Shown here piece after piece: positions 823 through 62,816 of a DNA stretch of 64,000 bases. A program made the position numbers and the translations under genes. Below the pieces are notes generated by a model. The model was not told the origin of the DNA. It did not search any database and saw only the letters and a list, made by a program, of their open reading frames with translations. The stretch is taken from NCBI RefSeq assembly GCF_003149375.1, contig NZ_QFWH01000002.1:310001-374000 (forward strand), in the 5' to 3' direction. The stretch's first letter is position 1, and the number at the start of each line of letters is the position of its first letter. The DNA is from Vampirovibrio chlorellavorus (GTDB lineage: Bacteria; Cyanobacteriota; Vampirovibrionia; Vampirovibrionales; Vampirovibrionaceae).

Positions 823-970
823 GGTGAGGCAGACCCGTCGCAACCCGTTTATAACGGTTTGAGTACAGCGAGTTATAAATGGATGTTTGGCAGTGCTGCC
901 AGAAATAGTTCTATTGTGTGTTCGAGCTGCGCGCAGCTTTATATACGGGTTGCGACGGGTCTGCCTCACC
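823..970 (-). repeat. Palindromic core-and-arm element, copy A
   Basis: A 148-bp element with perfect 26-bp inverted arms at 823-848 and 945-970. Read on the minus strand, the inside carries a self-complementary CTGCGCGCAG, a hairpin GGCAGCACTGCC, and the core TAACTCGCTGTACTCAAACCG. It starts 41 nt after the murJ stop. Its right arm contains the stop codon of the convergent proline dehydrogenase gene (966-968). It matches copies B-E in its interior but has different arm sequence, with complementarity kept. Seen directly in the sequence; function unknown. Confidence 0.9.
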
Positions 971-55141: not shown

Positions 55142-55171
55142 TCTAGGCGGACGCATTGAAGATTCCGCTGA

Positions 55172-55292
55172 GTGCCTCGCCACCACGCGCTTTTAAAACT
55201 GCGTGCAGCTCTCAAGCAGACTCGGACTGCTCCGAGCAATGCTATTCAGCGGGCTGTACTCAAACAGTTAAAAACGTGTTGTGAAGGGGTAC
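55172..55292 (+). repeat. Palindromic core-and-arm element, copy B (degenerate)
   Basis: A 121-bp element. Arms at 55172-55195 and 55269-55292 match at 17 of 24 positions, so this copy is the least perfect. Its core has AAAACTGCGTGCAGCTC, a hairpin CTCGGACTGCTCCGAG and CTGTACTCAAACAGTT. It begins 30 nt after the stop of the TonB-like gene, between it and convergent topA. Confidence 0.75.
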
Positions 55293-55296
55293 ACAC

Positions 55297-55334
55297 CACA
55301 ATCCCTGATGGGCAACTGCCGATCAGGGATTGTG
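55297..55334. terminator. Long hairpin between convergent genes
   Basis: A perfect 13-bp stem (CACAATCCCTGAT at 55297-55309 with its complement at 55322-55334), with an inner GGCA/TGCC stem. It adjoins palindromic copy B and precedes the topA stop. No U-tract follows directly, so it may block transcripts or protect 3' ends rather than act as a classic terminator. Confidence 0.55.
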
Positions 55335-59202: not shown

Positions 59203-59345
59203 GGGTCAGTATCCCTGCACAAGCCGTTTCTAAAACTGCATGCAGCCGTGGACTGTTAATGAACGCTCTTGGCATAATTGCCAAGCTCCTATTGAAGGCG
59301 TTGTACTCAAACCGTTACAAACGGCTTGTGCATGGATACTGACCC
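59203..59345 (+). repeat. Palindromic core-and-arm element, copy C
   Basis: A 143-bp element. The 27-bp arms (59203-59229 and 59319-59345) pair at 26 positions. Inside are AAAACTGCATGCAGC, hairpin TTGGCATAATTGCCAA and TTGTACTCAAACCGTTA. It starts 26 nt after the stop of the secreted Asn/Tyr-rich gene and is followed five bases later by a bidirectional terminator. Confidence 0.9.
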
Positions 59346-60722: not shown

Positions 60723-60760
60723 CTCCACTTTTGGACAGTCGCTCCGGCCACTCTTGAAAA

Positions 60761-60905
60761 GGCAGGTATCCCTTCACCACGCGTTTCAAAAACTGCGTGC
60801 AGCTCAAACAAGTTGAGGAATTTCTTTTGGCAAAGCTGCCAAGCTCAAGTTTTTTAACTCGCTGTACTCAAACCGTTAGAAACGTGTGGTGAAGGGATAC
60901 CTGCC
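60761..60905 (+). repeat. Palindromic core-and-arm element, copy D
   Basis: A 145-bp element. The 27-bp arms (60761-60787 and 60879-60905) pair at 26 positions. Inside are AAAACTGCGTGCAGCTC, hairpin TTGGCAAAGCTGCCAA, and TTAACTCGCTGTACTCAAAC. It begins 38 nt after the zinc-ribbon stop and ends 22 nt before the convergent yggT stop. Its interior aligns almost base for base with copy A read on the other strand. Confidence 0.92.
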
Positions 60906-60927
60906 CTTTAAAATAAGACAGCCTTGC

Positions 60928-62532: not shown

Positions 62533-62575
62533 TTTTTTATTTCTTCTTTTTGGGTTTTTTGCCAAATAATAAAAC

Positions 62576-62715
62576 GATGAGGCTGCCCTCTCAGTCCGTT
62601 TGTAGCTGTTTGAGTACAGCGAGTTTAAAAAATGTCTGGTACTCTCATCCAGAGCGCTCTCTGTTTGTTGGAGCTGGAGGCAGTTTTACAATTGTACTGA
62701 GAGGGCAGCCTCGTC
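62576..62715 (-). repeat. Palindromic core-and-arm element, copy E
   Basis: A 140-bp element. Arms at 62576-62595 and 62696-62715 pair over 20 positions with one G-T wobble. On the minus strand it reads AAAACTGCCTCCAGCTC, a self-complementary AGAGCGCTCT, and AACTCGCTGTACTCAAAC. It starts 43 nt after tRNA-Asn and lies before the stop of the convergent peptidase gene. Confidence 0.88.
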
Positions 62716-62816
62716 TTAATAAAATGCAGGCGAATCGGGTGAGGATTGCCTGCATGGATGTTTTTATGTTGGCTGGGGCTGCTTTACACGGAGCCTGCTT
62801 GCCGCCGGGTAAAGTC

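Follow-up and report, generated by a model that had tools for sequence, protein, structure and literature searches.

The palindromic repeats in this part of the Vampirovibrio chlorellavorus genome raise the question of how a long hairpin stays paired when the sequence of its arms differs from copy to copy. The stretch analysed here, called the window, comprises 64,000 nucleotides (G000:C2:310001-374000) of a genome of 2.79 Mb. An initial annotation of the window had drawn attention to an 11-mer, TGTACTCAAAC, within a paired frame at 60787-60879. This 11-mer occurs exactly five times in the window, at 857 (-), 55255 (+), 59302 (+), 60863 (+) and 62608 (-), as compared to 0.5 expected occurrences with one mismatch allowed, and five occurrences were never reached in 100 shuffles. 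Each of them sits within a longer inverted-repeat element of 131-148 bp, whose near-perfect inverted repeat spans about 30 bp. The paired frame with a conserved inner part is indeed common to the copies, and the element at 60787-60879 is real, the true unit being larger, i.e. 60761-60905 plus the flanking 8-bp repeats. DNA folding yields z values of -8.8, -0.9, -7.7, -9.4 and -7.4 for the five window elements; hence, all but the copy at 55167, which has decayed, are strong hairpins. The features are as follows (CM, found with the covariance model described below; MW495066, a collinear sequence described thereafter):

823 to 970, minus strand: copy (CM); orthologues L074 (same arms) and L259:5080-5230 (very different arms, which match each other)
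55167 to 55297, plus strand: short, decayed copy with mismatched arms (CM, 91 bits; DNA fold z -0.9); orthologues L032 and L258:10963
59204 to 59344, plus strand: copy (CM); its orthologue at the corresponding MW495066 site has an arm mismatch in common with it and differs at two places, each altered on both arms
60753 to 60760, plus strand: left target duplication CTTGAAAA, a 7/8 match to the right one
60761 to 60905, plus strand: the copy in question, GGCAGGTATCCC...GGGATACCTGCC, with a near-perfect outer stem of ~27 bp (CM, 159 bits; DNA fold z -9.4; boundaries from the target duplication)
60863 to 60873, plus strand: 11-mer TGTACTCAAAC within the conserved 3' inner block AACTCGCTGTACTCAAACCGTTAGAAACG
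60906 to 60913, plus strand: right target duplication CTTTAAAA
62567 to 62574, plus strand: target duplication TAATAAAA (TTTTATTA on the element's strand; the empty site in G004 reads TTTCATTG)
62575 to 62716, minus strand: copy (CM); site empty in G004 and without the element in MW495066
62717 to 62724, plus strand: second copy of the target duplication TAATAAAA

MW495066.1 is recorded as 'Microcystis phage MaAM05, complete genome' (273,876 bp; L258 and L259 cover 98000-178011). Over ~63 kb it runs collinear with the window (85% identity), and its genes include smc, scpA/B, glyS, secDF, fliM, topA, mtnP and tRNA-Asn; five elements of the family are present as well. The sequence appears to be a Vampirovibrio chromosome contig filed under the wrong name and not a phage.

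An alignment and a covariance model were made from 39 full copies. Hereby, copies were found in three Vampirovibrio genomes only (G000, G002 and G004, about 25-35 per genome), and the model returned zero copies in the Vampirovibrio congeners G001 and G003 and zero in the remaining 377 of the 382 genomes searched for this class. For the analyses below 91 copies were fetched (25 from G000, 35 from G004, 31 from G002); G002 is a metagenome assembly, and two of the three carrier genomes may be of this kind. A pattern scan of GTDB genomes returned V. chlorellavorus NCIMB 11383 (LAPX contigs) and Vampirovibrio sp. clean456 (DAIDMR contigs) as relatives, together with scattered single matches to a 17-mer in other phyla. 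The family is without match in Rfam, plasmids and IMG/VR. Lone 11-mer matches in other genomes are ascribed to chance, and G011, a candidate second carrier with 18 such matches, was rejected because the matches lie inside an unrelated IS1-family element. This insertion sequence (L045-L060, L205-L223; ~18 copies) contains TGTACTCAAAC ~90 nt before its DDE domain, which we take as coincidence.

The family consensus reads GGTnAGnnTnCCnTCACAACACGTTTGTAAAACTGCGTGCAGCTCAAACAA, followed by a variable middle, often with a GGCA..TGCC hairpin, and by TTTTTAACTCGCTGTACTCAAACAGTTACAAACGTGTTGTGAAGGGAnnCTnACC. With a length of ~131-155 bp the elements are short, non-coding and dispersed, as miniature transposons of the MITE type are. 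Gaps between convergent genes account for 37 of 79 element positions as compared to 20 of 140 other gaps of the same loci (Fisher p = 3e-7, based on crude ORF calls), and convergent genes, judged by the longest ORFs, flank all five window copies, one of which lies beside tRNA-Asn. This enrichment is most simply explained by tolerance of insertions at such places.

When the boundaries are set at GG...CC, direct repeats of the flanks show a sharp maximum at a length of precisely 8 bp (z = 12.9, 91 copies), and flank identity over these 8 bp reaches at least 7/8 in 24 of 91 copies, where 1.1 are expected. The target duplications are AT-rich, for example AAAATAAA (L062), TTAAAATA (L075) and TTTTTAAA (L064). 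One clean empty site was found, orthologous to 62575-62716: G004 here reads TGCA-TTTCATTG-TTTGGC, with a single TTTCATTG, whereas G000 carries TTTTATTA at either side of the element; the orthologous stretch of MW495066 is also without it. Two further candidates for empty sites were discarded, since G000 and G002 hold another repeat at the site of L027 and the site of L166 is too rearranged to read. The repeat found in G000 and G002 where G004 has L027 is a different palindromic one, TTGTCATTCCCGCGCAGGCGGGAATCC...GGATTCCCGCCTGCGCGGGAATGACAA (L234; L233 near 1400). Taken together, the 8-bp duplication, the boundaries and the empty site identify a non-autonomous, MITE-like transposon and not a fixed RNA or protein site; the mobile origin considered in the initial annotation was a good guess. 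By structure and behaviour the family conforms to a MITE, the parent transposon being the single customary feature that is missing: it was not found with the IS1, IS1595, ISL3 and Y1 profiles and may be lost; we thus keep the label 'MITE-like'. The window copy at 60761-60905 (target CTTTAAAA) and the MW495066 copy L258:16597-16744 (target TAAAATAA) are independent insertions ~4 bp apart, meaning that the same intergenic spot was used twice in two strains and that some spots are hot. Due to this reuse of sites, separate insertions may account for some of the same-site pairs, L067/L168 and L177/L166 above all.

HUH Y1 transposases do not make a target duplication, and the 8-bp duplication thus points to a transposase of the DDE type. 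The IS200/IS605 or RAYT enzyme suggested in the initial annotation does not fit on two counts, namely the 8-bp duplication and the lack of a Y1 HUH transposase in the five Vampirovibrio genomes, where the Y1_Tnp profile (PF01797) matched in none and in 5 of 14 control genomes. Searches with IS1, IS1595, ISL3 and Y1 profiles found no parent with the same ends. The IS1 profile gave one weak IS1-like ORF in G000 (G000:C12, L207) and none in G002 or G004; L207 was rejected as a partner, as matching ends are not visible in an end scan that is itself weak, using a profile of four arms. IS1595 gave a single fragment in G002, and ISL3 gave none.

IS1 target duplications measure 8-9 bp, a length shared by the Vampirovibrio element. 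Scored against an arm profile built from 138 arms, the 12-nt ends of IS1, GGTGATGCTGCC and GGTAATGACTCC (verified on plasmid R100), fall in the top 9e-5 and 3e-3 of window 12-mers, a likeness that covers the first 12 nt only, was chosen post hoc and ends thereafter. Unlike IS1, the element has no IS1 transposase inside. A link to IS1, suggested by the terminal 12 nt and the 8-bp duplication, may therefore be entertained tentatively, with the odds somewhat against it.

The arms are matched within a copy and differ between copies. Arm identity amounts to 0.87 within a copy (~0.9 when the fixed A/C mismatch at position 31 is left out) versus 0.69 between copies, and arm types are continuous, with 84 different arms among 86 copies; the inner arm ends CGTTTnTAA / TTAnAAACG are the best conserved part. 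Changes on both sides are seen at 25 of the 27 pairs of the outer stem, several standard pair types occurring at many of these pairs. Same-site orthologues show 16 changes on both arms as compared to 0.3 expected, a count based on a re-checked set of same-site pairs from which L065/L185, with unmatched loops, was dropped. The pair L026/L160 alone contributes four both-arm changes, among them a paired 1-nt deletion, and its target duplications have the same internal mismatch (AAATCTCT/AAATCTTT) and the same junction, indicating one insertion and not two. Likewise, one arm mismatch is common to the 59204 copy of the window and its counterpart in MW495066, which differ in two paired changes. At the site of 823-970, the MW495066 element has two arms that agree with each other at all of 30 nt but bear little resemblance to those of the window copy.

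Four same-site pairs are found in opposite orientation, namely L067@2371/L168, L036/L203, L199/L164@1942 and L177@2001/L166. The loops of L036/L203 have the 17-mer AAAAGCGACTTTTTAAC in common and those of L199/L164 the 13-mer AGTCTGAATTTTT, both words being absent from all other copies; hence, each of these two pairs is most likely one copy turned round. L067/L168 and L177/L166 are less convincing as true flips. The exchange in L199/L164 can be mapped from four arm mismatches: the outer two have kept their place relative to the flanks, and the inner two have turned with the loop. It thus falls within the arm itself, in the variable outer part (between positions 11 and 20). Moreover, the palindrome creeps outward: six copies show an inverted match of at least 6 nt just outside their ends, as compared to 0.45 expected and never more than four in 2000 swaps. 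The clearest of these copies (L027, L166, L177) retain little direct duplication.

Reported effects of template switching are the homogenisation of arms and the inversion of spacers (PMC8604942), and it is predicted to leave behind multiple compensatory changes, extended stems and loops in inverted orientation (PMC8794818). Paired arm changes, flips and flank creep are thus published signatures of template switching, which argues for maintenance of the hairpin at the DNA level. Template switching between inverted-repeat arms, also called quasipalindrome correction, was studied in yeast genes and RNA genes in these cases (PMC8604942, PMC8794818), in contrast to the MITE-like family considered here. 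We consider it probable that the family consists of MITE-like palindromic elements of ~131-155 bp and that the match between their arms is maintained by DNA template switching or by some equivalent exchange from arm to arm. According to this scheme, a DDE transposase acting in trans, possibly IS1-like as the terminal 12 nt suggest, with its gene not found by the profile searches above, would have inserted the copies. After insertion, template switching at replication would copy a mutation of one arm to the other or erase it, the same arm-to-arm switching might occasionally flip the loop, and copying that occasionally overruns the end of the element could render the flanks palindromic too. The conserved inner blocks probably hold what the transposase or the transposition intermediate needs.

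A structured non-coding RNA or another RNA-level element, e.g. an RNase III or mRNA-stability hairpin, with a stem that selection preserves through compensatory mutations, would account for the strongly covarying outer stem and the strong folding, and such roles are known for ERIC and NEMIS (PMC2229807). However, RNA selection should favour G.U, and wobble pairs are not preferred here: arm mismatches comprise 59 GU/UG versus 89 AC/CA (which would read as a mild wobble excess if the bottom strand alone were transcribed), and single-arm changes between orthologues comprise 15 GU/UG and 16 AC/CA. The paired deletion, the loop flips and the palindromes extending into the flanks are unexpected for an RNA, the inner stem is without covariation and Rfam contains no match, so that we regard this explanation as unlikely.

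Matched arms could also arise without any arm-to-arm copying if each copy came from a transposon subfamily with its own matching ends, same-site pairs then being hot-spot reinsertions in either orientation. The independent insertion of the 60761 and MW495066 copies ~4 bp apart, the AT-rich targets and the existence of several subfamilies agree with this proposal, but L026/L160 is one insertion and yet shows four both-arm changes, and the 59204 copy shares an arm mismatch with its orthologue and yet differs from it by two. As the flipped pairs L036/L203 and L199/L164 additionally share exclusive loop words, and arm types form a continuum instead of discrete classes, separate subfamilies appear quite improbable as the source of the matching. 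Flipped orthologues, together with inner arm ends that are the most conserved part of the arms, might finally suggest a cassette inverted by a dedicated recombinase for phase variation. A site-specific crossover would leave the matching of the outer arms and the flank creep unexplained, and the exchange mapped in L199/L164 lies in the variable outer arm; we thus give this possibility very little weight. In conclusion, we assign the elements to a new MITE family, ordinary in kind, whose hairpin is probably kept matched by template switching at the DNA level. A further possibility, somewhat short of an even chance in our estimate, is that arms are rewritten and the centre flipped at a rate comparable to point mutation, making the family a natural template-switch recorder in which the hairpin persists without RNA-level selection.

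The inner part of the element is less rigid than it appeared from the window. The 11-mer had been described as identical in all copies; among copies found by the covariance model and picked without using the 11-mer, 49 of 89 keep it exactly, so that further copies without a conserved 11-mer do exist and its invariance inside the window is small-sample luck. Nor is it single-stranded throughout, as predicted RNA folds mostly pair TGTAC (mean unpaired probability 0.09-0.29), mainly with the 5' GTGCAGC block, and leave only TCAAA largely open. Since the 11-mer varies and is partly paired, an invariant single-stranded recognition site is unsupported. The central GGCA..TGCC hairpin is common (63 of 85 MFE folds) and not fixed. 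The idea of a conserved four-way junction is not sustained either, strong covariation being confined to the outer stem.

Among known systems, Correia/NEMIS elements (CREE) of Neisseria are likewise intergenic palindromic mobile elements of ~100-150 bp with many copies, terminal inverted repeats and target duplication (PMC2229807), and inversion in place has been reported for them (Elbeyioglu 2017, as cited in PMC10969869). They differ in having uniform terminal repeats with a terminal TA motif (PMC2229807), whereas the Vampirovibrio ends start with GG, the duplication is 8 bp and the arms differ between copies yet match within them. By this comparison, and with inversion included, Correia elements are the closest in behaviour. 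ERIC/IRU and the Rickettsia palindromic elements resemble the family as intergenic elements of ~100-150 bp that form a single long stem-loop from end to end (PMC2229807); unlike in those cases the host lineage is an unrelated one, no sequence match was seen, including none by Rfam, and ERIC has a 7-bp terminal inverted repeat with terminal TA (PMC2229807). The literature search returned no paper linking MITEs to template switching and no earlier account of such an element in the predatory Vampirovibrio, whose genome paper gives only a count of transposases, 13 (PMC4451040).

The family is unusual for the clarity of its DNA-level hairpin maintenance. Stem covariation normally counts as the strongest sign of a functional RNA; in this family it extends to 25 of 27 pairs, yet the signs point to DNA copying. 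Paired changes in a hairpin need not imply a working RNA, which calls for caution in covariation-based RNA discovery, and if the family is indeed such a template-switch recorder, covariation in other bacterial palindromic repeats that has been read as RNA function may have the same origin. As three genomes hold ~90 copies, two congeners lack the element and several same-site orthologues are available, the family offers a test set for the frequency of template switching in bacterial inverted repeats.

Half elements are found as well, L022, L038 and L044 consisting of the 3' half only and L225 and L231 of the 5' half only. As ends of an autonomous element they were rejected: the former three have no partner end within 2 kb, and the latter two run directly into neighbouring genes, so that the half elements look like truncations. 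The breakpoints recur at similar inner positions, following ...ACAA or preceding AACTCGC/AAGGCGC, and the half element L044 seems to provide the stop codon of a trmL-like gene.
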